This document shows positions 894 to 50,000 of a stretch of DNA of 60,087 nucleotides, in pieces. The notes beneath the pieces are model-generated. The model ran no database searches, was not told the origin of the DNA, and saw only the letters and a program-made list of their open reading frames with translations. A program made the translations under genes and the position numbers. The DNA comes from Carboxylicivirga sediminis (GTDB taxonomy: Bacteria > Bacteroidota > Bacteroidia > Bacteroidales > Marinilabiliaceae). The stretch covers positions 1 to 60,087 of the forward strand of contig NZ_JAGTAR010000034.1 in assembly GCF_018156225.1 (NCBI RefSeq), in the 5' to 3' direction. Numbering within the stretch: the first letter of the stretch is position 1; every line of letters starts with the position of its first letter.

Positions 894-3800
894 ATGTCAT
901 CTATGCCTCATCCATTAAAGCTTCCGGCTACGGGTTCTCAGCGCGTGCTCGATACCTTGAACCAGGTTTTGGAAATTATTCAGCAGGAAAACCCGGTTGA
1001 TGAAACCATTGAAGAAGTGATAGAAATAGTGGGTAAAGGCTTTACCTACCCTGATATATGTGTGCGTATCCGCTATAAGCAGATTGAGTTTTCGACCAGC
1101 GGATTTATGGAGACCTTGAACGGGCTCACTGAGCGCTTTTCAACCATAGATGGTAAGAAAGGCGTTATTGATGCCTTTTATATAGAGGAACACCCGCCAA
1201 AAGACGAAGGCGTGTTTTCGCGCGATGAGCGCTCACTGCTCAACCAGCTGGCCCGTATGCTAACAGGTTTTATTAACCGCATTGTGGCCGAGCGTAGTCA
1301 TTCCGAATCGGTTGAGCGCCTCAAAGAATTATCAACCATTAACCGCACTACACGCATTATCAATGAAGGGAAGTCAATAGATGATGTGCTGCAACAAATA
1401 GCATTTATTATGCCCCTTGGCTGGCAGTACCCCGAGTTCACAGTGGCGCGCATCAGCTATGGCGGGCGCGAGTACAAGAGCGAACATTTTATGGAATCGG
1501 AGTGGGTGCAAACGCAGCGCTTACATACCAGCGACGGGCAATCGGGTTCCATAGATGTGTTTTATATCAAGGAATTTCCGTCGCTTAATGGTGACCCTTT
1601 TTTGGCCGAAGAGCGTGATTTATTAATCAACCTGTCGCGACTGATAACCGATTTTCTGAATAGCCAACTGGCCGCCAAAGATAAGTTTGAACGGCAAGAA
1701 AGGGTCAAAGAGCTGCAAACCATCAATGAAACGGCTCGTATTATTGCTCTTCAAATGCCCATTGCATATACCTTAAGTCACATTGTTGACCGCATGCCGG
1801 CGGGTATGCAGCACCCCGATTATTCGGTAGCCCGCATAACATTGGAAGGGCAGGAATACTTAAGTCCTGGTTTTGTTGAAACACCCTGGTTGCTGCGTCA
1901 CTCCTTTGAAACCATCAATGGTAAAAAAGGAACTGTTGAGATATACTATTTGAAAGAACTGGCCAAAACTCAGGAAGAGCTCTTTCTGAATGAAGAGAAT
2001 GACCTGATACTGAATCTGAGCCACCTGATAGTGGGCTACCTCAACAGCATGGAGGCTCGCAACCTGATGGAGAAGGTGGGGCATCCGCACCAGGTTAGAA
2101 CCGTTAGCCATGAGTCAGATGTTGTGACCGAATCAACCGGTAACAGCAAGCACCTGTTGCAGAATTTTATGCACCGTAACAATGCGGCGCGGGATATTTA
2201 CCACGATTTAATGCCCTTTAAAGTCAAGGAAATACTGCTGGTAGCCACTTTGTATGATGCTTATGCCATTGAAAATGAAGGACGATTCACCGAACAGGTG
2301 ATGGGTGGGTTTTACCAGTTGCACCTCTCGCTATTGCCACGTGTAACAGGGGTTACCACCTATGAGGAAGCCATGGCCAAACTCAGCGAAAAGCACTACG
2401 ACCTTATTATTGTGATGGTGGGCGTTGAAAAACAGTCGCCCATGGCACTCAGCCAGATGGTGAAAAAGGAATACCCCTACATTCCCATTTTCATGCTGCT
2501 CAATAACGATGGCGATATACCATATTTTCAGGCTCGCCAGCGCGAGTTAGGTGTACTCGATGAGATTTTTGTGTGGAATGGCGATCCTAAGGTGTTTTCA
2601 TCCATGGTTTACCACCTTGAGGACAAGGTGAATGTGGAGAATGATACAGAGATAGGGCTGGCTCGCGTTATTCTGTTGGTAGAGGATTCGGTGCGCTATT
2701 ACTCCAAGTATTTGCCACTGCTTTATGCCAGTGTGCTGGAACAAACCAAACGCCTGATAGATGATGTGAAAGAGGATGAGCTGTATGCTGTGTTAAGGCA
2801 TAAGGCACGACCTAAAATACTACTGGCCCGCACCTATGAAGAGGCCCAGGAGATATTTGAAAAGTACCGCGACTACCTGTTATGCCTTATCTCTGATGTG
2901 GAGTTTTCAAAAAACGGGCAGCAAAATGCCAATGCCGGTTTTGAACTGGTTAACTACGTTAAGTCGCACATCAAAGATTTGCCGGTCATACTACAGTCAT
3001 CCAAAATAGAGTATTCGCAGGATGCCTATGAGCTAAAAACTGTTTTTATCAACAAATATTCCGAAAGCCTGATTCAAGATATCAAAACCTTTATCAGCCA
3101 TTATCTGGGCTTTGGTAATTTTGCCTATAAAGATGCCAATGGTCGCACCATTGCTGTAGCCCGCAACCTGAAGGAGTTTGAACGCACCATGCGCAAAGTA
3201 CCAGCTGAATCAATCGTCTACCATGCACGGAAAAATCACTTCTCTTTATGGCTGATGGCGCGTGGCGAGATTAGGATTGCCCGTAAGATAGCCCCGTACC
3301 GCATCACCGATTTTGAGGGAGCTGAAGAGATACGTTCGTACCTGTTAGAGGTGATTAAGCGGCACCGCGAGGAGAAGAACCAGGGCAAGGTCATTGATTT
3401 TGATGAGGTGGAAGTCATTGATGACACCAATATTGTTAGCCTCTCGGGTGGTTCGCTGGGAGGTAAAGGGCGGGGCCTGTCTTTTATCAACACCCTCTTG
3501 TTTAATTTTGATTTTGAAACACATGTACCAGGTATTAATATTCGTACACCACGCACTACGGTGGTGGGAGCCGATGAGTTTGAGTTATTTATGGAACGTA
3601 ACAGTTTCAGAGAACTCATCTTTCGTAACCTCAACTATCACCAGATAAAAAAACTCTTTCTGGGTGGGGAACTGTCTTTATCGCTGGTACAGCGCCTGAA
3701 ACGCCTGCTGACCATATTTACAGGTCCTATTGCGGTGCGTTCATCCGGCTTGCTGGAAGATAGCCAGAAGCAGCCATTCTCCGGTGTGTTTGAAACCTAC

Positions 3801-5105
3801 CTCTTGCCTAATAATGCCGATACTCAGCAGGAACGGCTTAAAGAGTTGTGCAACGCCATCAAACTGGTGTTTGCCTCCGTGTTTAGTGATTCTGCCAGGG
3901 CTTTTACCGAGGCGGTTGATTTTAAAATTGAGGAGGAGAAAATGGCTGTTGTGATACAGGAGGCAGTGGGGCATACGCACGACAATGTATTTTACCCGCA
4001 TATAAGTGGCGTTGCTCAGTCGTACAACTATTACTCATTTGGTCACATGAATCCCGAGGATGGCTTCGCAGTGATGGCCCTGGGTTTTGGTAAGTATGTG
4101 GTGGATGGTGAAAAAGCCTTGCGCTTTTGTCCGGTTTATCCGGACCTGGATAATAACTCGGCCAAGGACCAGTTGAAGAATAGCCAGACAGAGTTTTATG
4201 CCATTGATTTAAGAAAGAAAAATCTGAACCTGCTTGAGGGGGAGACGGCAGGACTGGTGCGCCTCGATGTTGATGAGGCTGAAATGCATGGGACGCTCAG
4301 TCATCTGGCCTCGGTTTATAATCCCGATAATAATACCATACAGGCCGGACTGGATGCCAGCGGGCCACGTGTGCTAAACTTTGCCGATATACTCAAGTAT
4401 AAATATATTCCTTTGTCCAGGGCACTGGAAGTAGTGCTCGATGTGGTGAAGGAGTCCATGGGTGCACCGGTGGAAATAGAGTTTGCTGTGGATCTGAAAA
4501 AAGACAAGGATGGACGGGCTACCTTCTACCTTTTACAGATTAAGCCGTTACTGGGTGGTGCGCAAAACTACAGCATCAATATGGAGCGCATTAATACCGA
4601 TGAAATAATCCTGCAATCGGAGCAAAGTATGGGCAATGGCAAGAACAAAACCATTACTGACATCATTTATATAGATAGTGCCCGGTTTGATAAGGCCAAA
4701 ACAAGGGATATGGCCAGCGAAATTGAGCGCTTAAATGCAAAGATGAAACAAGAAAACAGGCATTATATATTAATAGGGCCGGGTAGATGGGGCACGCGCG
4801 ATCCGTGGATTGGCATACCCGTCAACTGGACCCAGATATCTAATGCCAAGATGATTGTAGAAACCGATCTGGATGATTTTCCTTTGGAGGCTTCCTGTGG
4901 TTCGCATTTTTTTCATAATGTTACCACCATGCAGGTGGGCTATTGCTCAGTGGTGAAGAGTGAGCCCGCATCGTTTATCAAGTGGGAAGTGCTGAAAGAT
5001 GCCAGGCAAATTGAGCAGACCACCTATTTCAGACATATTCGCTTTGATAAGCCCTTGGTGATGCGCATGGATGGTAAAAAACGGAAAGCAATCATTACCT
5101 TGTAG
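894..5105 (+). CDS. GAF-like x3 / receiver x2 / PEP-synthase-type ATP-grasp regulator
   Basis: A 1403-residue soluble protein. Three repeats of about 120 residues (15-135, 142-262, 272-387) share a YPxxxVARI-like strand and a GxIDxFYIxE strand and resemble GAF-type sensor domains. Two receiver-like domains follow. The first (445-575) has no aspartate at the phosphoacceptor position (DLIIV at 503-507). The second (592-735) keeps VEDS at 596-599, Asp668, Ser702/703 and Lys721. A PPDK_N/PEP-synthase ATP-grasp domain spans about 845-1220, with SLGGKGRGL at 854-862, AVRSS at 947-951 and LQIKP at 1214-1218, so its ATP-site residues look intact. The phosphohistidine swivel domain and PEP-binding barrel of true PEP synthases are absent; instead there is a conserved tail with GPGRWG at 1295-1300. 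It is first in an operon with a shorter paralogue 36 bases downstream. I infer nucleotide-dependent regulation rather than PEP synthesis. Confidence 0.85.
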   Translation: MSSMPHPLKLPATGSQRVLDTLNQVLEIIQQENPVDETIEEVIEIVGKGFTYPDICVRIRYKQIEFSTSGFMETLNGLTERFSTIDGKKGVIDAFYIEEHPPKDEGVFSRDERSLLNQLARMLTGFINRIVAERSHSESVERLKELSTINRTTRIINEGKSIDDVLQQIAFIMPLGWQYPEFTVARISYGGREYKSEHFMESEWVQTQRLHTSDGQSGSIDVFYIKEFPSLNGDPFLAEERDLLINLSRLITDFLNSQLAAKDKFERQERVKELQTINETARIIALQMPIAYTLSHIVDRMPAGMQHPDYSVARITLEGQEYLSPGFVETPWLLRHSFETINGKKGTVEIYYLKELAKTQEELFLNEENDLILNLSHLIVGYLNSMEARNLMEKVGHPHQVRTVSHESDVVTESTGNSKHLLQNFMHRNNAARDIYHDLMPFKVKEILLVATLYDAYAIENEGRFTEQVMGGFYQLHLSLLPRVTGVTTYEEAMAKLSEKHYDLIIVMVGVEKQSPMALSQMVKKEYPYIPIFMLLNNDGDIPYFQARQRELGVLDEIFVWNGDPKVFSSMVYHLEDKVNVENDTEIGLARVILLVEDSVRYYSKYLPLLYASVLEQTKRLIDDVKEDELYAVLRHKARPKILLARTYEEAQEIFEKYRDYLLCLISDVEFSKNGQQNANAGFELVNYVKSHIKDLPVILQSSKIEYSQDAYELKTVFINKYSESLIQDIKTFISHYLGFGNFAYKDANGRTIAVARNLKEFERTMRKVPAESIVYHARKNHFSLWLMARGEIRIARKIAPYRITDFEGAEEIRSYLLEVIKRHREEKNQGKVIDFDEVEVIDDTNIVSLSGGSLGGKGRGLSFINTLLFNFDFETHVPGINIRTPRTTVVGADEFELFMERNSFRELIFRNLNYHQIKKLFLGGELSLSLVQRLKRLLTIFTGPIAVRSSGLLEDSQKQPFSGVFETYLLPNNADTQQERLKELCNAIKLVFASVFSDSARAFTEAVDFKIEEEKMAVVIQEAVGHTHDNVFYPHISGVAQSYNYYSFGHMNPEDGFAVMALGFGKYVVDGEKALRFCPVYPDLDNNSAKDQLKNSQTEFYAIDLRKKNLNLLEGETAGLVRLDVDEAEMHGTLSHLASVYNPDNNTIQAGLDASGPRVLNFADILKYKYIPLSRALEVVLDVVKESMGAPVEIEFAVDLKKDKDGRATFYLLQIKPLLGGAQNYSINMERINTDEIILQSEQSMGNGKNKTITDIIYIDSARFDKAKTRDMASEIERLNAKMKQENRHYILIGPGRWGTRDPWIGIPVNWTQISNAKMIVETDLDDFPLEASCGSHFFHNVTTMQVGYCSVVKSEPASFIKWEVLKDARQIEQTTYFRHIRFDKPLVMRMDGKKRKAIITL

Positions 5106-5141: not shown

Positions 5142-8100
5142 ATGACAAACCCACAAAATATACAGCAGACCGGCTATTTTTCTGAAACACCTTTTGGGCA
5201 CCTGATGCAAAAGCGCATCCATAAAGTTCTGCTAATCTGCAGTGGCTACGATGCCTTTATGTTGGATGAGGACGGGCGTATTGATGAGCAGATTTTCAAT
5301 GAGTACGTGTCGCTCAACCTGCGTTATCCACCTCATTTCATTCATGTTGAGACCTCTGAAGAAGCTTTGGAGGTGCTGGGTAGTGAGCAAATCGACTTGG
5401 TTATTACCATGTTGAGTATCGGCGGAATGGACCCTTTCTCAATGGCCAAAAAGGTTAAAGAATCGTATGAGAAGATTCCGATTGTGGTGCTCACTCCGTT
5501 CTCCCGCGAAGTATCGGTGAGGATGCGCCGTGAAGATACGAGTGCCATTGATTATATCTTCTGCTGGCTGGGCAATGCCGACATTATGCTGGCCATTATC
5601 AAGCTGATTGAAGACGAGATGAATGTGCAGCATGATGTGGAAGAGGTGGGGGTGCAAGCCATCTTGTTGGTGGAGGATTCGGTCAGGTTTTATTCGAGCT
5701 ATCTGCCGCTTATCTATCGCATCATACTTACGCAGGCCAAAAAATTTATGGATGAAGGGCTGAATGAACACCAGAAAATGATGCGCATGCGCGGACGCCC
5801 TAAAATTATGCTGGCACGCACCTATGAAGAAGCCATCGCTATTTATGAGAAATATGAAGATAATCTGCTGGGAATCATTTCTGATGTATCCTATGCAAAA
5901 GGAGGTGTGAAAGATACTGAGGCTGGTATTAAGCTGGCCAGGCACGTCAAAGAACGGAATAAGTACATGCCGTTTCTGTTGCAATCCTCTAATCGCAGCC
6001 TCGAAAAGGTAGCTAAGGATTTAAAGGTCGCTTTCTTATATAAGCATTCTTCATCGCTGTTAAGGCGCCTCAAGCATTTTATTAATAAATACCTGGCTTT
6101 TGGTGATTTTGTTTTTGTAGACCCTTCCAACGGGCAGGAAGTGGGACGGGTAAGTAGCCTGAAGGAGTTGCAGGAGAAATTATTTCAAATTCCGGATGAA
6201 TCCTTGTTTTACCATTTTCAGCGCGATCATGTTTCAAAATGGCTCAATGCCAGGGCTTTGTTTTCCATTGCTGAGGTGATTAAATACTTGAAGGTGGAAG
6301 ATTTTGCCAATCTGGATGCCACCAAACGCTTTTTGTTCGACACCATTGCCAATTTCCGATACAGCAAGTCGCGTGGCGTTATTGCCAAGTTTTACCGCGA
6401 ACGCTTTGATGAATACCTTACATTTACCAGAATTGGAGATGGCACCATCGGTGGTAAAGCCCGGGGACTGGCATTTCTTAACCTGTTGATAAAGAAGTAT
6501 GATGCTATCCATGCCTTCGACAATGTATTGGTTACTATTCCGCGAACCGTCGTGCTCAGTACCGATGTGTTTGACGAATTTATGGAGGTGAATGAATTGT
6601 ATCCGATAGCCTTGTCAGAGGCTAGTGATGAGGAGATACTGAAAGCCTTTGTAAAAGCGCATTTACCAGAGCGTATTCATGGTGACTTGTATAAATTTAT
6701 TTCCATCGTTAATAAGCCCATTGCCGTGCGTTCATCAAGTGTGTTGGAAGATAGCCATTACCAACCTTTTGCTGGGATCTATTCAACCTACATGATTGCC
6801 AATAATGATGAGGAAAATATTGTGCTGGAACAGTTGTGTAATGCCATTAAGTGCGTTTATGCCTCTGCATTTTATAATTCCAGCAAGCGTTACATGGAAG
6901 CCACCATGAACGTAATAGATGAGGAACGCATGGGTATTGTGCTGCAGGAGGTGGTTGGTCAGCGCCATGGCGATGTGTTTTATCCAACCTTTTCAGGCGT
7001 AGGACGCTCTGTTAACTTTTACCCTATTGAACCTGAGAAAGCCGAGGATGGAACTGTTAATGTGGCCATGGGATTGGGTAAACACATTGTAGAAGGCAGT
7101 GCTTCCTTACGATTCTCCCCCAAATATCCGCAGAAAATACTGCAATTATCCAGCACCGACATGGCCGTTCGCGAAACACAAAAGAACTTTTTTGCGCTTG
7201 ATCTTAAGTCATCCAGCTTTCATCCTTCAGTCAATGATTCCGTAAACATTGAGAAGCTCGACCTGAAAACAGCTGAGGAACATGGTACCTTACGCTGGCT
7301 GGGATCGGTATACGATTATAACAACCACATGATTAGGGATGGTTTAATGGCCAAAGGCTTGCGCCTGGTTACCTTTGCCAATGTGCTTAAATACGATGCT
7401 TTTCCGTTGGCCCCAATTATTCAGAAGGTTATGGAGATTGGTCAGAAGGAAATGAATCAGCCGGTTGAGGTGGAGTTTGCAGTGGATTTGCAGGTGCCTC
7501 AAGGACAGCCACCTGTATTTTACCTTTTGCAAATCAGGCCTATTGTTGACTCCAAAGAGTCCATTACAGAGAAGCTGGAAGAGCTTGAACCATCAGATAC
7601 TTTGGTACATTCAACATCGGCTCTTGGAAATGGAATTATTGATGATATACAGGATGTTATATATATTAGGCCAGAATCATTTAACCCGGCCAATAACACT
7701 AAGCTGGTGTTCATTATTGAGCAATTAAATGCTCCGTTTCATCGAAACCATAAGTCATATATTTTGATTGGTCCCGGGCGGTGGGGGTCGCAGGATTCCT
7801 GGCTGGGAGTTCCGGTTAAATGGACACAGATTTCGGCGGCCCGCCTTATTGTGGAAACAGGCCTTGAAAATTACCGGGTTGATCCATCGCAAGGCACACA
7901 TTTCTTTCAGAATCTGACAAGCCTGCGTGTTGGTTATTTTACGGTGACCCCTTCCATTGGCGATGGTTTTGTAGACACAAGCTACCTCGACAGTTTACCT
8001 GCCGAATATGAGGATGAGTATCTGAGGCATGTGCGTTTGCCATCGGCCTGCACAGTGAAGATTGATGGTCAGAAGGGGATAGGAGTGGTATTACCACCTG

Positions 8101-8153
8101 GATATAATGCTGCCAAAAATGAAGAATTTCCTCTGGAATATAGTATCGAATAA
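5142..8153 (+). CDS. Receiver x2 / PEP-synthase-type ATP-grasp protein
   Basis: A 1003-residue paralogue of the preceding protein, collinear with it from the first receiver domain onward but without the GAF-like repeats. Receiver 1 (about 28-160) has IDLVITML at 84-91 and lacks a clear phosphoacceptor. Receiver 2 (172-312) has VEDS at 177-180, Asp248, Ser282/283 and Lys301. The ATP-grasp domain (about 430-805) carries TIGGKARGL at 435-443, AVRSS at 528-532 and LQIRP at 796-800. The C-terminal tail again contains GPGRWG (877-882). From memory, a protein of this length and order is widespread in Bacteroidales and is often labelled PEP synthase or pyruvate phosphate dikinase. The lack of the catalytic histidine domain argues against that activity. 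It ends 11 bases before the GDH homologue, so co-translation is likely. Confidence 0.88.
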   Translation: MTNPQNIQQTGYFSETPFGHLMQKRIHKVLLICSGYDAFMLDEDGRIDEQIFNEYVSLNLRYPPHFIHVETSEEALEVLGSEQIDLVITMLSIGGMDPFSMAKKVKESYEKIPIVVLTPFSREVSVRMRREDTSAIDYIFCWLGNADIMLAIIKLIEDEMNVQHDVEEVGVQAILLVEDSVRFYSSYLPLIYRIILTQAKKFMDEGLNEHQKMMRMRGRPKIMLARTYEEAIAIYEKYEDNLLGIISDVSYAKGGVKDTEAGIKLARHVKERNKYMPFLLQSSNRSLEKVAKDLKVAFLYKHSSSLLRRLKHFINKYLAFGDFVFVDPSNGQEVGRVSSLKELQEKLFQIPDESLFYHFQRDHVSKWLNARALFSIAEVIKYLKVEDFANLDATKRFLFDTIANFRYSKSRGVIAKFYRERFDEYLTFTRIGDGTIGGKARGLAFLNLLIKKYDAIHAFDNVLVTIPRTVVLSTDVFDEFMEVNELYPIALSEASDEEILKAFVKAHLPERIHGDLYKFISIVNKPIAVRSSSVLEDSHYQPFAGIYSTYMIANNDEENIVLEQLCNAIKCVYASAFYNSSKRYMEATMNVIDEERMGIVLQEVVGQRHGDVFYPTFSGVGRSVNFYPIEPEKAEDGTVNVAMGLGKHIVEGSASLRFSPKYPQKILQLSSTDMAVRETQKNFFALDLKSSSFHPSVNDSVNIEKLDLKTAEEHGTLRWLGSVYDYNNHMIRDGLMAKGLRLVTFANVLKYDAFPLAPIIQKVMEIGQKEMNQPVEVEFAVDLQVPQGQPPVFYLLQIRPIVDSKESITEKLEELEPSDTLVHSTSALGNGIIDDIQDVIYIRPESFNPANNTKLVFIIEQLNAPFHRNHKSYILIGPGRWGSQDSWLGVPVKWTQISAARLIVETGLENYRVDPSQGTHFFQNLTSLRVGYFTVTPSIGDGFVDTSYLDSLPAEYEDEYLRHVRLPSACTVKIDGQKGIGVVLPPGYNAAKNEEFPLEYSIE

Positions 8154-8164
8154 AAACTTCAATT

Positions 8165-9502
8165 ATGAGTTTGGATAGGTTTCTGTATCAGCTACAACTT
8201 AATAATCCCAATGAACCCGAGTTTATTCAGGGTGTCAGGGTCTTTCTTAGCACAGTTGAAGATCGTATCAGAGACGACTTCAGGCTGAGCAACGCAGCTG
8301 TGTTAGAGCGTTTGACTGAACCGGACAGGGTGCTGCAGTTTAAAGTGCCCTGGCTAAATGATGAGGGCCGGGTGATTGTGAATCGTGGCTATCGGGTGCA
8401 GTATAATAATGCATTGGGGCCTTATAGCGGAGGAGTACGCTTTCATCCTGCATTAACATTGGGTACGGTTAAGATGCTGGCTTTTGAGCAGGTATTTAAA
8501 AATAGCCTTTCTTCGCTACCATTGGGAGGAGCCATGGGAGGAGCTAATTTTGATCCTAAGGGTAAATCAGAAGCTGAAATTATGCGATTCTGCCAGAGCT
8601 ATATACTGCAACTGTGGGACGCTGTAGGTGCTGATATTGATATATTGGGCGGTGATATAGGAGTAGGCAGCCGGGAAGTTGGATACCTCTTTGGTATGTA
8701 TAAAAAGCTAACACATCAGCACAGTGGTGCCTTTACAGGCAAGTCACCCGATTGGGGCGGTACCGGTTTACGAGCCGAATCCAATGGCTATGGCGTTGTT
8801 TATCTTTTAAAGTCCTTACTCAAGCGGCATAATGATTCATTGGGCGGTAAAACAATAGCCGTGTCTGGTTTTGGTAATATGGCCCATGGTGTTATAAAAA
8901 AAGCCAATGCTATGGGGGCAAAGGTGGTAACCATTTCAGGGCCTGATGGCTATGTGTATGATCCGGGCGGCATTGATAGTACAAAACTCGAGTATCTGAT
9001 TGAGTTAAGAGCTACATCGCAGGATTTAGTACGCCCTTATTCCATAGAGTTTCCAGGGACTATTTATGTAGAGGGGAAAAAGCCATGGGAGGTGGAGTGT
9101 GATGTTGCCATACCTTGCGCCATTCAAAATGAGATAGATGTTAAGGAAGCAGGCATGCTTCAGGCTAATAAATGCCGGTATCTAATAGAGGCCGCCGATC
9201 AGTCATGTACCGAAGAGGCCATCCAGTTTTTGATGGATAACTCAATAACATATGTGCCCAGCAAGGCTGCGAATGTTGGAAGTGTAGCAATTTCAGCACT
9301 TGAACTGGCGCAAAATACCATGAAGGTGGCCTGGTCTGATTCGGAAATTGAAAATCGCCTGCAGGATATTATGGAGCGGACATATAATTTATGCCGGCAG
9401 TTCGGTAGTCAGAATAAAGAAGGTGTGAACTATTTGAGAGGAGCTAATGTAGCTGCATTTCAAAGGGTGGCTGAAGCTATGATCGACCAGGGGGCTGTGT
9501 AA
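8165..9502 (+). CDS. Glutamate dehydrogenase homologue lacking two active-site lysines
   Basis: The 445 residues align end to end with hexameric bacterial glutamate dehydrogenases (family length about 445). Numbering is one less than Clostridium symbiosum GDH. The family GPYKGG motif reads GPYSGG (Ser88 for Lys89). The catalytic-lysine motif PMGGxKGGSDF reads PLGGAMGGANF (Met124 for Lys125). Lys112 (EQVFKNSL) and Asp164 (GGDIGVGSREVGY) are kept. The usual EGANMP motif reads EAADQS (342-347), and AGGV reads VGSV (371-374). The Rossmann motif SGFGNMA (234-240) remains, so dinucleotide binding may persist. The codons are unambiguous and the frame is intact, so this is not a decayed gene. It lies 11 bases downstream of the second ATP-grasp protein. 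Likely an enzyme of altered specificity or a pseudoenzyme regulator; I would not assign ordinary GDH activity. Confidence 0.88.
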   Translation: MSLDRFLYQLQLNNPNEPEFIQGVRVFLSTVEDRIRDDFRLSNAAVLERLTEPDRVLQFKVPWLNDEGRVIVNRGYRVQYNNALGPYSGGVRFHPALTLGTVKMLAFEQVFKNSLSSLPLGGAMGGANFDPKGKSEAEIMRFCQSYILQLWDAVGADIDILGGDIGVGSREVGYLFGMYKKLTHQHSGAFTGKSPDWGGTGLRAESNGYGVVYLLKSLLKRHNDSLGGKTIAVSGFGNMAHGVIKKANAMGAKVVTISGPDGYVYDPGGIDSTKLEYLIELRATSQDLVRPYSIEFPGTIYVEGKKPWEVECDVAIPCAIQNEIDVKEAGMLQANKCRYLIEAADQSCTEEAIQFLMDNSITYVPSKAANVGSVAISALELAQNTMKVAWSDSEIENRLQDIMERTYNLCRQFGSQNKEGVNYLRGANVAAFQRVAEAMIDQGAV

Positions 9503-9508
9503 AAATAA

Positions 9509-9532
9509 AAAGCCCGGGTTAAACCGAGCTTT
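9509..9532. terminator. Bidirectional terminator, GDH homologue / helical periplasmic protein
   Basis: AAAGCCCGG at 9509-9517 pairs with CCGAGCTTT at 9524-9532, with one C-A mismatch. Read on the minus strand the hairpin is followed by TTTTTATTTTT, which is the better tail, so it probably serves the convergent minus-strand gene as well as the operon. Confidence 0.7.
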
Positions 9533-9556: not shown

Positions 9557-10030
9557 TTAGTTCTTCTCAGGAATTATAATCGGCAGGCTTTCAATAATGG
9601 TAGCATTAATGTGTGTATAGATATACCCATCTATCTGATAAAACTGAGCAGCTACTTTCATGCCGAGTTCTTTTTTAAACTTTTTATAGAATTTCATGCG
9701 CAGGTTCTGACGGGCTTTCTGTGCTTTATCTAGTGCAATAATTTTTTTGTCAAGCTCATCTTCAGATAGTGCACCTTCTTTGGCAATAATTTCTTTAAGT
9801 AATTCAACCCGCTGGTTGCTAATGGGTTTTAAAGCAGCTTCATATTCATCATAAATCGCCCAAAAAGCTTCACTTTCTGATGTTGACAACTTAATGTTCT
9901 GTGCATAGAAAACTTTTATCTCAGATTTTAATATAGAGCCAATTAGGCCTAATTCTTGTTCTGTTTTCTGCGCATTAATCCCTGAAATTCCTGCCGATAA
10001 GATGTAAATGATAAGTAGTAATTTTTTCAT
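9557..10030 (-). CDS. Small helical exported protein, Spy/CpxP-like in character
   Basis: A 157-residue protein with a typical signal peptide: MKKLLLII, a hydrophobic core and a likely cut after INA at residues 18-20. The mature part is almost wholly charged and helical, with long runs of Lys and Glu around 75-130 and no cysteines. Size and composition recall periplasmic helical stress proteins of the Spy/CpxP kind, but I cannot identify an LTxxQ motif with confidence, so the family is left open. It converges on the GDH homologue with a shared terminator and is divergent from the lipoprotein gene at 10202. Confidence 0.7.
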   Translation of the reverse strand: MKKLLLIIYILSAGISGINAQKTEQELGLIGSILKSEIKVFYAQNIKLSTSESEAFWAIYDEYEAALKPISNQRVELLKEIIAKEGALSEDELDKKIIALDKAQKARQNLRMKFYKKFKKELGMKVAAQFYQIDGYIYTHINATIIESLPIIIPEKN

Positions 10031-38026: not shown

Positions 38027-41000
38027 ATGGGCGTAAATACCCAAGCGTTAATCGGTTACCGATTAAAAAAGAGGATGGCATCTTCGATGTTAATCCTTGT
38101 GTTGTTATTAATATCAGGAGTTAAGGCCGTTGGCCAAATCTATCAATACGACAATAAATGTACCGGAGGAGTCATTTATGCGTCAGAAGTATTGGCAAAT
38201 GCTATTGGAGCAGGGGCAAATATTCCACTGGCCGATCAAACCGGAGGTGTATTCGTAACAAGTGATCCTGATTTAATACTGGCAGGGAATGATGAAAATG
38301 CCATTATCTATGGAACCAAAGATGTGGGTGGTGGCCAGCGATTAGATTGGATTGTTAATGGAATAACCTACCGCATTAATATTAAAAAACTGCTTGGAAG
38401 TGCGGGAGCACCGATCGTTATAGATTTTTACACTAATACCCCTGATGTTTGTACAATTCCATATAATGCCATCGTTTATGTAACTATTCAAGGTGGTAGC
38501 TCTTTCTATGATATAACCATCACTGATGAGACAAATGCGGTTATTTCAGAGCTGTTTAACGTTAGTACGAATATTACCAATTACCCCATTAATTTAGGTA
38601 ATTTTTCAATCGATAAAACATTTACAATTAAAGCAGTTTCGGACGGAGGGGCCTGTGTTGCTGATGTTTCAGCTGTCATGCCAGTCTCTTTTACTGCATC
38701 AAATATTCCGCAGACTTATCAGTTGCAGGATATTAATGGTAATACCTATGCAACGGGCTGTTCAAGCAGCGGTGTTGATCTTTATCTGTCAAATAGTGAA
38801 GACCAGGTAACCTATAATGTTTATAGCGGAGGAACCCATGTGCTTGGCCCCATAAATGGCAATAATACCGGTAATCAACTGTTTCTTGGAACAGTCAATA
38901 CAATTGGCATTACTTCTTATTATGTTGAGGCTACGCATAATGGCTCAGGCTGTCAGACAACGATGGGTAATATGACAGTTAACCTGTCCAATGCCCCTGT
39001 GGCTAGCATTGCACCTGGTACAGTATTTGAGAAATGTTTCGGTGCTCCGGATCAGTTTGATATCACGCTCAATATCTCGCCTATTGATCAAGGACCATGG
39101 AACGTTGTAATTACCGACGGTACCAATGATTATGCATTTGTTGCAAATACCTATGATGATGCCTGGCGAACGCCAAATATACAAGCTACAACAACTTTTA
39201 CCATCAAGTCCATAGTTGATAAGAACGGATGTGTTAATACTGTCAATAATGGCTCTGCGCAAATAACTGTTAATCCTAAACCTGCGGTTACGTTAGTAGG
39301 ACCCGACAGGGTTTGTATGGGTAATTCAATCAACCTGGGGACTTCTGTGGCGCCGGTTGGAATAGTTATAGTTGATTATGATTGGAGCACAGGAGCAAAG
39401 GGACCTGGACTTGACAATATTAATGTAACACCTAGTATTCAGCCAATTCATACATATGATGTTACTGTTACATCAGATAAAGGTTGTATCGGTTCAGCTG
39501 TCAAAAATATTACTGTTAATTCGCTGCCTGCAGTTTCGTTTACATCTCCTAAGTATACTTTCTGTCAGGATGATCCTTCGGTGACGCTTTCAAGTGTTCC
39601 GGCCGCGGGAGGTAGTTACAATATTGGTTCAGCAGTATTTGATCCATCAATCATGCCAGTTGGTAGCCAGAGTGTAACTTATACATACACCGATGTAACG
39701 ACAGGCTGTACCAATAGTGATACCAAGTTGTTTACCGTTAATCCGGTGCCGAATGTTTCTATTACTGGGCTTAATGCTTCATATTGTGCTGACGCAGGTG
39801 TTTTGACCATGCAAGGTAACCCGCCCGGAGGAGGAGCAGTTCCTTTTGGCAGTTTCACTTGTTTCCCCAATGGAGGCTTCTTTAATGATAATGGTGATGG
39901 TACAGCTGATTTTAATACTGTTCAGGCAGTAGCTGATCAGGGGCCCGGGGATTATTACTTCTCCTATACTGCTGTTAACTCATTGGGTTGTGATGCTACT
40001 GCAACCGAAAGTGTAACGATTAATGCAGATCTGAATGCAACCGTTAATTATACCGGTCTAGCTAATTTCTATTGTGGTGATGATCCTACACAGGATGTCA
40101 CCTTAACAGGCAATGTGCCAGGTGATGGCATTTTTACCATTCTACCAGCTTGGGCCGCAACTGGAGCCGATGCTGCTTTTGTAGACAATGGCAACGGAAC
40201 TGCGACTTTTAATCCTTATAAAGCTGGTGGTGGTACCTTTGATATTACCTATGAATATACTGATGCTACCGGTTGTACTGGACGCAGAACCTATTCAACA
40301 ACGGTTGGGGCCACGCTTGTTTTTGATCTGGATGGCCAAACTTTCTGTCAGGGCGATCCGGTACAAACATTATCGGCAACACCTGTAGGAGGCTACTTCT
40401 CAATTGAGGCGCCTGATGGTACTGTGCACTCCCCAATTGCTAATGGCAACAGCACCTGGTTTGATCCAACAACTCGAATGCCAGGCATTTATCAGATTAG
40501 CTATCGCTATGACAATGGTACTGGTTGTTTGACTTCTCAAACTTATCCAGTTGAGATCAAAAAAGCGCCATATCCCGACTTTAGTATCGAAGGAACTGGT
40601 AAGTACTGTGAGCAGCAGGGACCGGTTAAATTGACCAAGGTCACAACTAATCCGGGTGTATTTACCGGAACAGGTGTTACAGAAGTAAGTAATGTGTACT
40701 ATTTCAATCCGGATATTGCCGGAGAGGGGATTCATACAATTACTTTTACCACCGATAGCTTGGGTTGTCGTTCAACCAAAACCATGGATGTGGAAGTGGT
40801 TACATCACCTGTGCTTGATATTCAGGTGGACCCATCACTTACCTATTGTGATAATGAACCTGGTGTGGTGATTGAAGGATTGGTTGATGGTACAACCTCA
40901 TTAACAGGTAACTTTACCAGTGCTACTAACCCTGGTGGTGATCTGCTGGTGCTCAATGAATATGCAGCTGAGGGCATTGGCCTCAATGATGGCAAAGGCT

Positions 41001-44000
41001 GGTTGTATCCGGGAGTGGGACCTGGTAATTATGCTGTTACATACATTTATGAGAACCCGGGTAATGGCTGTATTTATCAGCATACTGAAAATATTCAGAT
41101 ACTTCAATCTGACGGTGCCAACTTTAATGGTATAAGTGACGGTGCTGTGCTGTGTCAGGGAACCGGTATTGTTAATCTATATGGGTTATTGCCAAATGGA
41201 GGAACGGGTCGATTCCCAACTCAGAATCCAGCCGATCCAACGCCAGATCCAACAGCTGATCCGGATAAAAACACAGGTGTGATTAATTCAGGAGCACTGG
41301 ATGGGGAAGCTTATTTTGATACACGATTATTATCTCCGGGGAATTATACTTTATTATATGAATATACCAATGCTGCAGGATGTACTAATTACAGCGAAAA
41401 GAACTTCACCATTGTTGAAGGACCTGTAGATGTTTACCAGGTAACCGGTGGTGGTGCCTACTGTGTGGACGATCCAGTTGCTACTAAGGGTGTATTTATT
41501 GGTATTGATGGTTCTACCGCGGGTGTAACTTATGAGTTACGATTAGGTGGTACGCCTGTTCAAACCAAGACCGGACCAGCTGGCGGAGGCCCTATGAATT
41601 TCGATAATCGTGTAACGGATGTTGGAACTTATTCGGTATGGGCTCGACTTGGTGGTTGCGAAGCGCCAATGTCAGGTAATGTAAATGTTGAGTTGTATGA
41701 CTTGCTGCTTCAACTTGATGGTGTCAATGCAGTGAAGCATGTCACTTGTTTTGGTGCTAACGATGGTGAGGTAAAATTAGTAGCTTCCGGCGGAAGTGGT
41801 AACTATACATTTGAGTATAGTTTGAATGGTGGTGCCTGGACTGTGAATCCAAATACTACACCAGATCACTTTATTAATCTGGTACCTGGTAATTATCAGT
41901 TCAGAATTACCGATCAGTCGGGTACAGCATGTGCCTTACCAGCTGGTAGAGAGGTGAATGTAACCATCAATTCTGCTGCTGCAGCCTTGAATGTTGTTTA
42001 TACCCAGCTTAGCAAAAACGGCTGTGACTGCTCAGTGCCAGCTGCAGACTGTGATGGTGCTGCACTGTTAACCATCTCAGGAGGAACGAAATATACCGAC
42101 CTGGTAACCTATCCAAGTGGTTACCTGGTTGAGTGGCCGGCAACGGTGACTAACCTGAGTGCCGACCTGTTAACAGCGACGCACTTATCAGAAGGAACTT
42201 ATACCGTAAATGTGACTGATGCCAATGGTTGTACTTCTTCGGTTATTGTAACAATTGAGAAAGAAGCCGACTTGACATTAGTACTTAATAGTCAGGATGA
42301 TAATCAGTGTTTTGGGGTTAATACGGCTAAGGCGAGAATAACAGCCACAGGTGGTTCAGGTCAGTATCAGTATTCATACGATGGAGGAACAAACTGGACA
42401 TTACCTACAGCTTCAACTACTTACGAAACAGGAGTGCTGGCTACCGGTAACCATAACATATTAGTACGTGACAGCGAGCATCCGCATTGTACGGCCGGTT
42501 TTACAGTTACCATCGTTGGACCTGCAAGTGGTTTGGTTGTTGGTGTAACCCCAGCTGGCGAAACATGCGTTGGCGATGCTGACGGATACATCACCTTGAA
42601 TATCACTGGAGGTACAGCACCTTATCGCTACCAAATGGATGGCGCAGGTGCGATTATGGCAGTTCCGGCTAACTTCGAAATTCACGGAATTAGCAATGGC
42701 GCACATACCATTACAATATTAGATGATAATAACTGCTCTGTTAATGAGGTGTTTACCATAGCAAAAGCACCAGTGATTGATTTAAGCGGTGTAGTTACAA
42801 ATGCAACATGTGATAGTAGTAATGATGGTAAGGTGGTGCTTACAGCGAATCCTGCCAATGTTAATTATGTTTACTCAATTGATGCAGGTGCCAACTGGCA
42901 ATCATCTCCAGTTTTCGATTTTCTATCGGCTGGTACTTATAATTTTATAGTACAGGACAATGTAAAAGGCTGTACTGCAGTTCTTAATAATCTAGTTGTC
43001 GCTGATGACCCGGCAATAGCAATTAATCCGGCTGCGGCTATTCAGCATGTGGTTTGTTTCGGTGAAGCCAATGGATCATTTACAGCCGTAGCAACTGGTG
43101 GTCAGCCAACTGGCTCATTTGAATATGCCATTGCTACCGACGCAGGAGGAAATCCGATTTACCAGGATTCACCAATCTTTAGTAGTTTACCAGCGGCTAC
43201 TTACGACTTGTGGGTGCGCAATAAGGGAACACTTTGTGAAGTGTATCAGTCAGATTATGTAGTTATCAACAATCCGGCCGCTCCACTATCAGTATCATTG
43301 AATAGCAAAACAGATATTGAGTGCGTTGGCGGAAACACCGGTGAGATTGATATTGATGTGAATGATGGTTGGCCAGGTTATACATATCAGTGGCGCAACA
43401 AAGCGACCAATGAAAATTTCGGAACTACACAGGATCTTAATGCTGTGACAGCAGGCAAGCGAATTGCCGGAGCAACCTATGAAGTGGTGGTAACAGATAA
43501 CCAAGGTTGTACGTTTACTTTTGAAGAAACTGTTACGGAACCATCGGCATGGAATGCAACAGTGAGTACAACACCTAATACGATCACCAATGCCGCGACC
43601 GATCCGGCAATTATTGGAAATGGAACCGCAGCATTATCACCCGTTAGTGGCGGTAGCGATCCAGCTACGTATACATATGAGTGGTTCGATAGTTCCAACA
43701 CATCCATCGCAACTGGTGTCATGGCTATCTCAAATTTGGATCCGGGTAACTATTATGTGATGATCACCGGTAGTGCAGCCGGATGTGATCACCGTGTGGA
43801 TTTTGTTATTGGTGATACGACAGTTCCTTTGGCTTTCGACCTGGCAAAAGTAGATGCCGCTTGTTATGGTGAAAATGGAAAATTAATTGTTTCGATAACA
43901 GGTGGAACACCTGACTATACAATTCAATATCAGCGAAATGCTGATCCTGTTCAATCAATTTCCGGAACATCAGCTAATTACCATGAAATAGCTGGGGCTG

Positions 44001-47000
44001 CCGGAACCTACCTTGTAACTGTGCTTGATAACAGTGGTGGAACTGTAACGCAAACTATTACAATTATACAACCTGACGCATTTACTGTTAGTGGAATTGA
44101 AAACTACGATAATTGCGAGGCAGCAATTGATGTGACTATATCTGAAACGGATGATTACCGTGTCACTTGGGTGGTACCAGCTGGTGCGCCTGCCATTGCT
44201 GTACGAACTATTAATTCAGGTAATTCATTTACTGAGAGCGGATTAACTTACGCAGGCGATTACATTGTAACCGTAGAGAATATCGCTTCAGGTTGTATTC
44301 AATCTGACATAATTACCTTACGTGAACCAAAATTAACTGTCGTTGAGGATCTTACACAGCATAAGGATTTACTGTGTAATGCTGCCGATAATGGTTACCT
44401 GGCAGTCAGCGTGACTGGAAGAGAGCCTGGACACGTCTTTAATTATATTTGGCAGAATGTAACAACAGGCGCTCCTTCAATTGATACGGGTTCAACACCA
44501 TCAATCGGATCGGCACATGCAGTTGATGCCGGAGTATGGCAAGTGACTGTCACTTCATCTGATAATTGCGTGGCAGTGTTGGGTGGTATGATTATTACTG
44601 AGCCGGATGCATTAACCTTATCAGATCCGCTTGTTAAAAATATCACAACCTGTTCTTCTCATGATGATGGTCAGGTTGAAGTTTCGGTGAGCGGCGGAAC
44701 TGCTCCTTACACAGTGACCGTGACTAATGGAACGATCACCAGAACACAAACTTTATCCGTATCAGCATTTATATTTACAGATCTGCCTGCCGGAAGTACG
44801 TATACCGTTAGTGTTATTGATGATAATACTTGTGCACCAGTTACTAAGCCATTTGTTATTACAGCTCCTCAAGCTGTAAGTGTTACAAATGTGGACGGTA
44901 CCATATCGTGCTATGGTCCTAACGATGGTATTATTTCGTTTGATATCACCGGAGGTGTTCAGGATGCTTCTAATAATCATAACGTATACGATTTAGTGAT
45001 TACAGGCGACAACGGTTTTAACCTTGGTACGCAAATCGATGTTCTCGCGATTCCATCGTATACCTATAGTTTACCAGGCTTAGCACCAGGAACTTATACT
45101 ATTAAAGTGTGGGATAACCTGGCAACAGTGGATCCAGCAAGTGGATGTCCGAATCCTGCTTATGAAACCAGTGTGACTTTATCACATCTGGAGGTGACAG
45201 AATCAATTATTAATAAAACCTGTCCTGGTGGTATTGATAATGGTTCGATAGAGTTAACTATTATTGGTTCAGGTAATTATATGTGGGTGTGGACTTATCC
45301 TAATGGTACAACTGTAAGTTCTCCTGGTATCATCAGTCAGTATAATTTAGCAGCTGGCACCTACACATTATCACTTACAGATGTTGATCGCGGATGCCCA
45401 TTACCTCCTTTAACGTATACTGTAGATTACGATCGCCAGGTTGAAATTACCAATTGGGAGTTAAAAGATGTAGACTGTTATAACCAGGCCAATGGTTCGA
45501 TTACGAATATTACTCATACTGCCACAGTACCACCGGTTTATACATGGACAGGTGTAGCAGCTGGTAATGAGAATCTAACTGAGCAGACGAATCTGGATGT
45601 TGGGTTTTACCAGCTGGAGATTAGGGAACCTGGAACAGGGTGTTCGGCCATTGAAACATTTGAGATCAAACAACCGGATAATCTACATTTTAATTTATTG
45701 AATACCTTAAGTTGTTCACCATTCAATCAACGAATATATGTAGATGGATTAGTGGGTGGCAATGGAGTAATCGCTAATTATACTTACAGATGGATAGGAC
45801 CGGATGGTAACTTGTTACCTGATGTGACTGATAATATTGATGTTACACAAGAGGGTTTGTACACGGTTACAGTGACAGATGAATTGGGTAAGTGTAGCCT
45901 GACTAAATCAATAAGCATCGAAGGTGAGATGTCTGTTGTGATTACCAAACAACAGCATGTCAGTTGTTTCGGACTTGCTGATGGTGCAATCGAAGTGAGC
46001 ATTCTGGGAGGGCCATCAGACAGGCAGTTTGTGTATAACTGGGAAGTGTTTGATGGTACGAACTGGGTAAATACCGGGGCGCCAACAGCTAATGCTTCTC
46101 TTACAAATATTACGAAAGGAACTTATCGCGTTGTTGTAAGTGCAGTTGACGCCATAAACTATCCATGTTCTGTTACTTCATCTGATATTGTTATAACGGA
46201 ACCACTTGAAATTCAATATGTAAATATTAATCCGATTAATATTACTACTTGTTCGAGCGCAGCAACAGGCGCAATTGAATTAGCTGTTACTGGAGGAAGT
46301 GGTGTTTATTATTTAGATTATACAGGTGATAATGTGACTGATTTGGTATCTAATGACGGCTTGTTCAGGGTTGATAACCTGACAGCCGGACTCTATCAGT
46401 TAAGATTAAGTGACTCAAATGGTTGCGTAACAAATCCTGTGATTGAGGATGTTCCAGTTACTGCGCCTGACCCATTGGTGTTGACTATTGATAATGTGGC
46501 GACTACTATCGACTGTGAAACAGAAGGTACTGGTGCGATTGTGTTTGATATTCGTGGTGGTAACAAAGATGGTAGTGGTAATCCACATTATCAGATAACA
46601 GTTACTGGAGAAACCCCTCGCGATGTTTATGCCGAAGGAACGGAAAGCTATTCTGATTTGAGTTCAGGAACCTACGTTATTAAGGTAGTCGATATGCTGG
46701 CATCAACCCAGTCGGCCTGTACGCAGCTTGAAGAAACAGTTACTTTGGAACTGTTAACGGTTGATGGCTTGGTAATTAATAATACATGTGCTTCAACCTC
46801 TAATAATGTGGGCGCTATTCGCAATATCACCATTAGCGGATCAACCAATTACGATTGGCAATGGGATGAAGTGAATGGTGACGTAGTGAGTGATAACAAC
46901 TCACTCAACCAGGAGAATTTAGCGGCAGGCACCTATATATTGAATGTGACTGATAATGACCGAGCTTGTACCATCTCCAAAGAGTTCATTGTTGGGGAAG

Positions 47001-50000
47001 ACATTACCTTGAATATTACCGGAGTAGCTGTGCCTGTAACATGCTATGGGGCCAATGATGGTAAAATATCTGGTGTAAATATTACAGGTACAGTTGATTA
47101 TACTTTTAATTGGTCAGGGCCTGGTCCGGTTGATAATACGCGCATTGATGGTCAGGAAAATCTGGAACCTGGCTCGTACTTGCTGGAAGTTATTGACAAT
47201 ACCAATGGTTGCCGCGTTAATCAGACCTGGTTGATAGAAGAGTCCCCAGAAATTACTTATGATCTGGAATTTGTCGTAGAAAGTTGTGAGCCTTATGAGC
47301 GTGGTATTAATGTACTTAATCCGTCAGGAGGTAATACCAGCTCGCCTGCTGATTTTAGTTATACATGGCGAGGCCCTGGTAACGTGGTTTATAATGGCCA
47401 GAACCTTACCGGATTAACAGTAGGCGGAATCTATACGGTGACTGTTGCGGATAATAATTGCTCAGTTACAAAGTCAATTGATGTACCTAAAGAGTTGGTA
47501 ATTACACCCACTATTACAGAATTAAATTGTAATGGTAATGTCAATGGTGCCATCGCCATCAGTATAACAGGTGGATCGGGTAACTTCAGTTATCAGTGGA
47601 CAAGAAATGGAGTAGCCTATAGTAATAACCTCGATATTAGTGGACTAGATGCCGCAACATATGAATTAACCGTTACAGATAATACAGAAACAGACGGAAG
47701 TAATTGTACTTATATCTGGTCCTACGATCTAAATGCGCCTGCTCCTATAATAGTGACTGGCACAGCAACGGATATCATCTGTAATGGCGATGCTAATGGG
47801 CAGATAGCCATTAATGTAAGCGGTGGTTCAGGTATCTATACTTATAACTGGACAACAGTTGATGGTAGTGGCCTGGTGCCAGCAAACCAAAACCAAACCG
47901 GCCTGTCAGGAGGTACCTATACGGTAGTGGTTGAAGATTCGAAAGGTTGTGTATCTGCGCCATTTGATTTTACGGTTAATGAATTGGAGGCCATTGACTT
48001 TACATTCATCCCAACAGATGCCGATTGCGACGGAGCTAACGGAGCTATTGATGTAACGCCTTCAGGTGGAAGTGGAACCTATGCCTACCACTGGAGTGCC
48101 AGCGATGGTGGCGTGGTAAGTGCCGCCGATAAAAATCAGGAAGACTTAAGTGGTTTGGTAAGTGGTACGTATACGCTTAAAGTGTGGGATGCCGATCCAT
48201 TGGAAAACAGAACAAGCTGTTTTATTGAAAAAACGATACAACTAACCAAACCAATTACAATTGAACCAACGGTGAAGAACCAGACATGTGCAGGTACTGA
48301 AAATGGTGAGATTGGTATTATTGTAAATGGTGGTACTGCCCCCTATTCATTTGTTTGGTCAACGGCCGATGGCAACGCGGCCAAATTGGATGTCAATGCT
48401 CAAAATCAGAGTGAACTTTCACCAGGTACTTATACAGTTGAAATAACTGATTCACGTACAGTTGCTTGTGTGAAATCCTTTGACATTGTGGTGGGTATTG
48501 ACTCTAATATCGAAATAATCAGTAATGTGTCACCAGTAAATTGTAACGGTGGAACCGATGGCAGTATCACCTTAGTGCAGGTATCAGGTGGGCTGGCTGG
48601 TAACTATAGTTACAACTGGACGGGCTCAGGCACAGGAATAGTGCAGGGGCAACGTAACCAAAGTGGCCTGAGCGCTGGTAACTATGTTGTTACTGTAACC
48701 GATGATGATACTGGTTGTAATGTTCAGGAAGCATTTAAGGTAAATGAACCATCTGTCTTATCAGTAAGTGTTGATAACCTGGTTGATGTGCTTTGTAAAG
48801 GCGATTTGAGTGGTGAGATAAGAGTTGTGGCAAGCGGAGGAACTCCATTCATCGATGGAGTAGGAGATCCTTACTATGAATACGTATGGATTGGCCCATC
48901 TGCTAACCTTATTCAGGATTCAGATACGCAAACCGGCCTCGTAGCTGGTAATTACTCCGTAACAGTTAAAGATGCTAACGGCTGTAGCTCTGCCACACTT
49001 GATATTGAAATTCAGGAACCAGCAACAACTTTATCTGCAACATTGGATAATGTAATTGATGTAAGTGCCACAGGTGGTAATGATGGACAAATATTCATTA
49101 CTGTAAGTGGTGGAACAGGTGGAAAAAATATCGCCTGGACAGGTATCGATCTGTTGGGTAACCCAATACCTGGTATTACGCAAAATACAGTTAATCCGCG
49201 TGACCTGGTGGCTGGTACTTATAAAGTTGTCATCACAGATGATAATGGATGCGATGTCACTATTGATGGTATCGTTGTGGAAGAGCCTAATATGCCTCTG
49301 ACAATGACTGTTTTAATCGATCATATCAAACCATGTCATGGCGATGGAAATGGTGCTATTTCAGTAACAGCTAATGGTGGTACTTCACCTTATATAATTA
49401 CGCTTTACGACGCAGGTAATAATGTGATTCAAACTGTTAATGCTGATGCACTGAGCCAGAGTAACCTGGCCGCAGCTGTGTATCGGGTCGAGATAAGCGA
49501 CAACGGAGGTAATACCATCAGTCGAAATGATTTGGAAATTACGGAACCTTCACCATTAGTGATTACTGCTACAGTAACGCAGCATGTTGATTGCTATAAT
49601 GCCTCAACCGGTGCCATGAATTTCCGTGTTGACGGTGGTGTGCCTGATGCTTCGGGCTACTATAAAGTAACCGTTACAGGGCCACAAGGTTATCGTAGCG
49701 AATTAGATAACATCGAAGAGGGAATTGATTATCCATTAAATAATCTGCCTGCAGGCGCCTATTGGCTGTCTGTTATTGATGATAGCAATGGCGATGGTGC
49801 TTTTGTATTAAGTGATAACTGTTCGGCACCAACAACAGCTACTATCAATCAATTGAGTGCTATTGTAGATGTGGACAATGATGTCACTATATGCGTGGGT
49901 CAATCGGCTGCCTTGCAGTTAACTGTGAGCAACTATCCGGTAAGTGCAGCTAATCCGTTGGATGTTACCTTAAGTGATGGAACAACTGCGACTCTTACTG

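Follow-up and report, generated by a model that had tools for sequence, protein, structure and literature searches.

What does a cell do with a glutamate dehydrogenase (GDH) homologue whose catalytic lysine is gone? The question is raised by an ORF, here named pGDH, in a stretch of 60,087 nucleotides from Carboxylicivirga sediminis (NZ_JAGTAR010000034.1) that we refer to at its full length as the window. A preliminary description had reported serine and methionine in place of two family lysines, and had proposed a selected loss of glutamate chemistry leading either to a new substrate or to a regulatory pseudoenzyme. The locus comprises the following features.

894..5105, + strand: PPDK1, 1403 aa, with a PPDK_N ATP-grasp domain at its C terminus and a match to DUF5752 (ORF, Pfam)
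5142..8153, + strand: PPDK2, 1003 aa, combining receiver-like folds with a PPDK_N ATP-grasp domain and, at the C terminus, a conserved region that contains GPGRWG (ORF, Pfam, conserved columns, predicted structure)
8165..9502, + strand: pGDH, a GDH homologue and predicted pseudoenzyme (ORF, Pfam, 1bgv alignment, 12-member clade, purifying selection)
8426..8428, + strand: Ser88 codon AGC, at the position of Clostridium symbiosum Lys89 (sequence, alignment; Ser in 2 of 12 orthologues)
8534..8536, + strand: Met124 codon ATG, at the position of the C. symbiosum catalytic Lys125 (sequence, alignment; Met in 12 of 12 orthologues)
9509..9532, no strand assigned (called on the minus strand): hairpin with a T tail, a possible terminator ending the gene group

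The pGDH ORF encodes 445 aa from an ATG start with no internal stop. Its Pfam matches (ELFV_dehydrog_N, 154.5 bits against a cut-off of 25.3; ELFV_dehydrog, 230.2 against 23.4), together with the alignment to the C. symbiosum GDH 1bgv, identify a full-length homologue of the hexameric type. In the phmmer alignment S88 takes the position of K89 and M124 that of K125, and the DNA reads cct-tat-agc and gcc-atg-gga at the two sites; K112 and D164 are retained as K113 and D165 in 1bgv numbering, which we use below unless stated otherwise. The motifs read GPYSGG, PLGGAMGG, EAADQS and ANVGSV, and the GxGN dinucleotide-binding motif is present as GFGN, as it is in all 12 orthologues described below. 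The residue assignments, motif readings and intact Rossmann-containing frame given in the preliminary description are all borne out. Among NCBIfam models, pGDH scores 588.3 for PRK14030.1 (cut-off 743) and 518.9 for PRK14031.1 (cut-off 822), and passes the equivalog PRK09414.1 with 554.3 against 536, so automatic pipelines would likely label it an NADP-specific GDH. If it is annotated as a working GDH, metabolic models may count a third, probably noncatalytic, enzyme.

We searched 71 genomes of the family for orthologues with E values up to 1e-120. Twelve genomes, the window's included, carry pGDH at 62–100% identity: ten of the 14 genus genomes (the window's and nine more) and two of the 57 other family genomes, both from other genera. 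All 12 copies are open and full-length and have Met at position 125, which is Lys in each of the 65 rows of the canonical set (the 79 tree rows less the 12 pGDHs and two other-family Met rows). Position 89 is also Lys in all 65 canonical rows of the alignment used, so that neither replacement is put down to chance; it is Lys in ten of the 12 pGDHs, with Ser confined to the window and one 99%-identical relative. Judged from these sequences, K125M is old and defines the clade, whereas K89S arose recently. Even the deepest member, L043, has Met125, but it still reads GPYKGG, EGANMP and ANAGGV, which suggests that pGDH was remodeled stepwise. Because Lys89 is retained by ten members, the Ser/Met clade beside PPDK_N proteins envisaged earlier is unsupported as a double-substituted group, the pair not being one event and Ser being the late change; what stands is a clade with PPDK2 upstream on the same strand at all 12 loci. 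The proposal of selected loss holds to the same extent: a retained, full-length gene has lost its catalytic lysine, and the two substitutions are separate in history.

The remainder of the protein was compared over 148 near-invariant columns, defined by one residue in at least 97% of the 65 canonical rows. In all 12 pGDHs 96 of these are unchanged and nine are changed (among them K125M, A163G, F105M and K437R), the other 43 being mixed. K113, D165, N373, S380 and K195 are retained in all 12 orthologues; R205 is kept in eight (Lys in four), G376 in eight (Ser in four) and N347 in two (Asp in ten). Across 14 rows, D165 is retained and the coenzyme-domain residues S234, G235, F236 and G237 and the SGPDG motif are invariant. 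Changes near six active-site residues, chosen from the structural literature, are not significantly concentrated relative to elsewhere (9/38 versus 18/110, p = 0.33), so the changes are spread across the protein and not confined to the pocket. Loss of catalysis is well supported by the sequences. Every member has lost the lysine but retains Asp165, the coenzyme motif and most of the substrate contacts, which as an alignment pattern is that of a ligand-binding pseudoenzyme.

The window genome encodes two more GDHs, GDH1 and GDH2, on another contig (G000:C56). They are 49% and 46% identical to pGDH and both carry GPYKGG and PMGGGKGG, so that the canonical GDH which the preliminary description had suggested seeking elsewhere in the genome is present twice. 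Searched with the N-terminal GDH domain of Pfam (E values up to 0.001), this genome yielded three GDHs and no fourth. Each of the 12 pGDH genomes has two extra GDHs, and the 19 of these 24 that were read all have both lysines.

Met125 also occurs in two other-family GDHs of the order, L020 (G074:C98:21364-22698) and L201 (G637:C14:14185-15519), in which the remaining active site is nearly canonical. Both genomes encode a second, lysine-bearing GDH, and neither Met125 gene has PPDK neighbors; PPDK2-like genes are present elsewhere in G074 and G637. One PPDK2 homologue in G074 (L228, G074:C101:14488-17427) contains a single in-frame TAG. A tree built without the K/M column (79 rows, with a bootstrap not fully settled) places the 12 pGDHs in one group (100/100) that joins other-family GDHs of the order (99/94); 22 of 101 rows, all GDH1 or GDH2 of the family, were left out of it, and the long-branched L030 was excluded from every tree after the first. 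The six other-family GDHs closest to pGDH comprise two with Met125 and four with Lys. An AU test run on 52 of the 79 rows does not clearly reject the idea that Met125 arose once for both families (p-AU 0.0554); the unconstrained tree of this test needs two changes, which makes convergence the better guess. All 14 Met rows have Ala three residues on, versus Ser in 63 of 65 Lys rows (MGGA versus KGGS). In an earlier tree a single branch (SH-aLRT 95) had set the 14 Met rows apart from the rest, an arrangement that was broken up by adding four Lys-bearing other-family genes.

A wide distribution of K125M was considered and rejected on reading the loci matched by DNA pattern. A loose pattern matched 98 of 395 phylum genomes, and only the window's locus among the 30 fetched has the GDH motif; ten of the 30 carry SGHPGG(A/P/S)MGGADF, which we take to be a transketolase motif. 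Within the order, nine of 393 genomes matched, three of the loci being GDHs (window, G074 and G637) and six not; patterns of this kind would fail to detect variants like GAAMGG in L043. A contig scan of the genomes matched GDHs with Lys125 at 80 of 80 loci, these being 80 of at least 591 confirmed stretches.

Selection was estimated from Nei–Gojobori counts with a custom script. The two Ser/Met copies, from the window and its nearest relative, are separated by 5 nonsynonymous and 66 synonymous substitutions, giving a dN/dS of 0.019 (0.007 for GDH2 in the same pair), and constraint thus persists after loss of both lysines. Among pairs with dS < 2, the two deepest members (L042 versus L043) give 0.156 for pGDH versus 0.042 for GDH1. 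In one species pair the dN of pGDH is 0.130 versus 0.040 and 0.053 for GDH1 and GDH2, and over comparable species pairs, the near-identical pair excluded, it amounts to ~1.6 to 4.7 times the value for GDH1 or GDH2. In most other pairs synonymous sites have reached or are close to saturation, and dN/dS is uninformative for most distant pairs. The higher dN indicates a constraint that is real but looser than on GDH1 and GDH2, and the faster amino-acid change also fits relaxed constraint. This rate, the value of 0.156 and the lack of pGDH in four of the 14 genus genomes are what a duplicate decaying into a pseudogene has in its favor. Such decay is extremely improbable and already largely refuted: all 12 copies are intact, the conserved position after PPDK2 is kept, and with the dN/dS of 0.019 between the Ser/Met copies these lead us to reject a decaying gene. 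The preliminary description had allowed for strain-unique substitutions in a decaying gene, an outcome contradicted by Met125 in all 12 orthologues and by the same dN/dS.

PPDK1, PPDK2 and pGDH are co-oriented and separated by 36 and 11 nt. PPDK2 immediately precedes pGDH at 11 of the 12 loci, where 11 to 199 nt without an ORF longer than 18 codons separate its stop from pGDH; the exception, G126, has a 793-nt gap that holds a 148-aa ORF (L101, G126:C236, 1515-2320). PPDK1 lies upstream of PPDK2 at 11 of the 12 loci, and the twelfth contig starts at PPDK2. GDH2 is divergent from and adjoins PPDK1 in ten relatives, in seven of which GDH1 follows ~4.6 to 5.9 kb beyond; GDH1 and GDH2 are ~20 kb apart in the window genome and in G110. 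As the window contig starts 893 bp before PPDK1, the GDH2 border is out of view there. The hairpin at 9509..9532 sits between pGDH and a convergent ORF (9557-10030) and is weak on its own, terminator-like sites numbering 8 against 9.2 by chance; neither the promoter nor the terminator scan gave site numbers above chance.

All four genus genomes from which pGDH is absent have PPDK2, which therefore does not need pGDH, and no remnant of pGDH was found downstream of PPDK2 in these four; in G112 this search covered ~1.5 kb. The pGDH position of G043 is occupied by a GDH with Lys. PPDK-like genes also lie ~0.1 to 5.5 kb from 19 of 80 ordinary GDH loci (L121, L123, L128, L137, L140, L141, L142, L148, L150, L156, L162, L167, L173, L177, L178, L179, L182, L191 and L200), a raw count, uncorrected for chance, that covers 80 of at least 591 stretches with flanks of unequal length. 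Most of the 19 carry Bacteroidota labels, and a few are MAGs under other phyla that may be misassigned. Some are tandem, as in the GDH-PPDK2-GDH-PPDK2 order of L177. Beside PPDK2–GDH tandems, L173 (19506-20693) and L177 (19835-21061) have a third GDH-like gene, 32–33% identical to GDH2. The presence of PPDK-like genes beside ordinary GDHs makes the PPDK–GDH association look older than the pseudoenzyme, and the PPDK_N proteins with receiver-like domains look like a GDH partner family.

In Pfam, PPDK2 matches PPDK_N, and a Response_reg match falls slightly below its cut-off. In its predicted structure (mean pLDDT 82.7, 20 sequences), part of the chain matches rifampin phosphotransferase and pyruvate phosphate dikinase (best E 2.2e-12, whole-chain TM only 0.2); further matches are response regulators, PleD among them, and single receiver domains. 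The model fits a protein with receiver-like folds, of which there are probably two, and a nucleotide-binding domain. The predicted pGDH monomer (mean pLDDT 75.6) best matches the GDH structures 4fcc, 3sbo and 1hrd, with TM 0.77–0.78 and rmsd > 7 Å. In this model pLDDT is below 50 at residues 53–57, 75–91, 93–99, 116–129 and 157–163, and both substituted sites fall inside these segments; the low values may be a limit of the method, which used 34 sequences and one chain.

Among solved structures, the closest relative of pGDH by sequence is the C. symbiosum NAD-GDH (1bgv, 1hrd; K89L mutant 1k89), aligned over residues 3–444 at 445.4 bits and also among the best matches by fold. That enzyme is an active homohexamer and, unlike the window pGDH, carries K89 and K125. 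The heterohexameric GdhA/GdhB GDH of Thermus thermophilus (3AOE) is more distant, its chains scoring 153.8 and 167.8 bits. We know of no PPDK-like partner of GdhA/GdhB; leucine-binding residues of the GdhA-type subunit are R135 and D166 of the Thermus protein. pGDH resembles GdhA in co-occurring with GDH paralogues (two per genome in 12 genomes, their activity being assumed). According to an excerpt of PMC9570180, the inactive GDH-family subunit GdhA regulates the active one in T. thermophilus. This precedent, together with the pseudoenzyme pattern of pGDH, leads us to favor a regulatory or adaptor subunit acting on GDH1 or GDH2, possibly via PPDK1 and PPDK2.

We thus consider it reasonably probable that pGDH is a pseudoenzyme kept as a regulatory or adaptor subunit that binds ligands, with a function like that of Thermus GdhA; it probably regulates the normal GDHs rather than acting as one, and its ligand binding, its partner and the direction of regulation are what we infer. 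The sequences show that an ancestor of the genus and its neighbors lost the proton-transfer lysine through K125M, whereas the coenzyme motif, the overall fold and most residues in contact with the substrate were retained. They also show that the altered copy stayed open, under purifying selection where this can be closely measured, in cells that kept two further GDHs. Since pGDH still looks able to bind a dinucleotide and, outside the window lineage, glutamate or 2-oxoglutarate, it could work as a ligand-binding, noncatalytic subunit that either joins GDH1 or GDH2 hexamers or associates with the PPDK-like receiver/ATP-grasp proteins of the genes just upstream. Either partnership would tie GDH activity to cell state. 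In the window lineage K89S may weaken glutamate binding, which would shift pGDH closer to a purely structural or coenzyme-sensing role. Besides the residues kept and lost, this reading is favored by the recurrence of K125M in L020 and L201, whose genomes each have a lysine-bearing GDH as well, by the PPDK-like genes near ordinary GDHs, and by the water-priming role that PMC7326016 gives to the plant lysine. Several observations weigh against it: the Met125 genes of G074 and G637 stand apart from PPDK genes, the changes are not concentrated near the active site, PPDK2 occurs without pGDH in four of 14 genus genomes, another ORF intervenes in G126, the faster amino-acid change would also suit relaxed constraint, and the pGDH model has its lowest confidence in loops around both substituted sites.

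In a competing reading, pGDH might only fill places in mixed hexamers, diluting active subunits without sensing a ligand; the further ligand-region changes in the window lineage (S88, D345 and S373 in its own numbering) and the 96 of 148 near-invariant columns intact throughout would suit such a part, but filling alone would not need the invariant coenzyme residues, and we think it unlikely. We estimate it to be quite unlikely that pGDH is a dehydrogenase acting on a different amino or keto acid, with Ser89 admitting a nonacidic side chain and another group replacing the catalytic lysine. The window copy does have K89S, A374V, G376S and G381A at near-invariant canonical positions, presumably all in the pocket, and K89 is also the residue replaced in 1k89, the structure of a C. 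symbiosum K89L mutant. Yet the change common to all 12 members hits the chemistry lysine and not the specificity lysine, K89 being retained in ten and S380, like K113 and D165, in all; leucine, phenylalanine and valine dehydrogenases, moreover, keep the catalytic lysine. The new-substrate branch of the original alternative is thereby weakened, and the regulatory branch is favored, though unproven.

Very unlikely, finally, is a weak or altered catalyst in which Asp165 and the coenzyme still support slow hydride transfer, with glutamate or an imine as substrate and no help from a lysine in hydrolysis. Here the relevant comparison is with plant GDH, whose Lys102 we take to be the equivalent of C. 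symbiosum K125. In the plant mechanism, as set out in an excerpt of PMC7326016, Asp142 takes a proton from the substrate and Lys102 primes a water molecule for attack on the imine, a division of labor that favors residual activity, as do D165 in 14 of 14 rows and the retained coenzyme residues. Against it, A163G in all 12 and N347D in ten of 12 alter other near-invariant positions, and the genome already has two GDHs with intact lysines.

A more specific form of the regulatory reading, which we put forward tentatively and hold to be rather doubtful, is a signaling module in which the dead GDH serves as a metabolite sensor for the tandem-receiver/ATP-grasp (PPDK-like) proteins, and these control the real GDHs. 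The PPDK–GDH linkage beyond the family would represent its older form, one GDH now being dedicated to sensing. Should the regulatory reading be true, pGDH would be an inactive GDH subunit that evolved separately from Thermus GdhA, and the PPDK_N/receiver proteins near GDH genes would gain a likely function. A proposed pseudo-GDH, YwlG of Staphylococcus aureus, is a possible pseudoenzyme activator of GDH; judging by an excerpt of PMC9522360, it differs from pGDH in not being a sequence relative, having 174 aa, a DUF436/UPF0340 assignment and 11% identity to GudB homologues. Among the matches listed by a literature search lying mostly outside subscription journals, no title or abstract opening described a Met125 GDH paralogue or a PPDK_N–GDH linkage. 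Farther along the window, an ORF of 6250 aa (38027-56779) with SprB repeats, PKD-like domains and a CHU_C type IX secretion signal encodes a giant secreted adhesin-like protein and is followed by a PorP/SprF gene (56785-57867).
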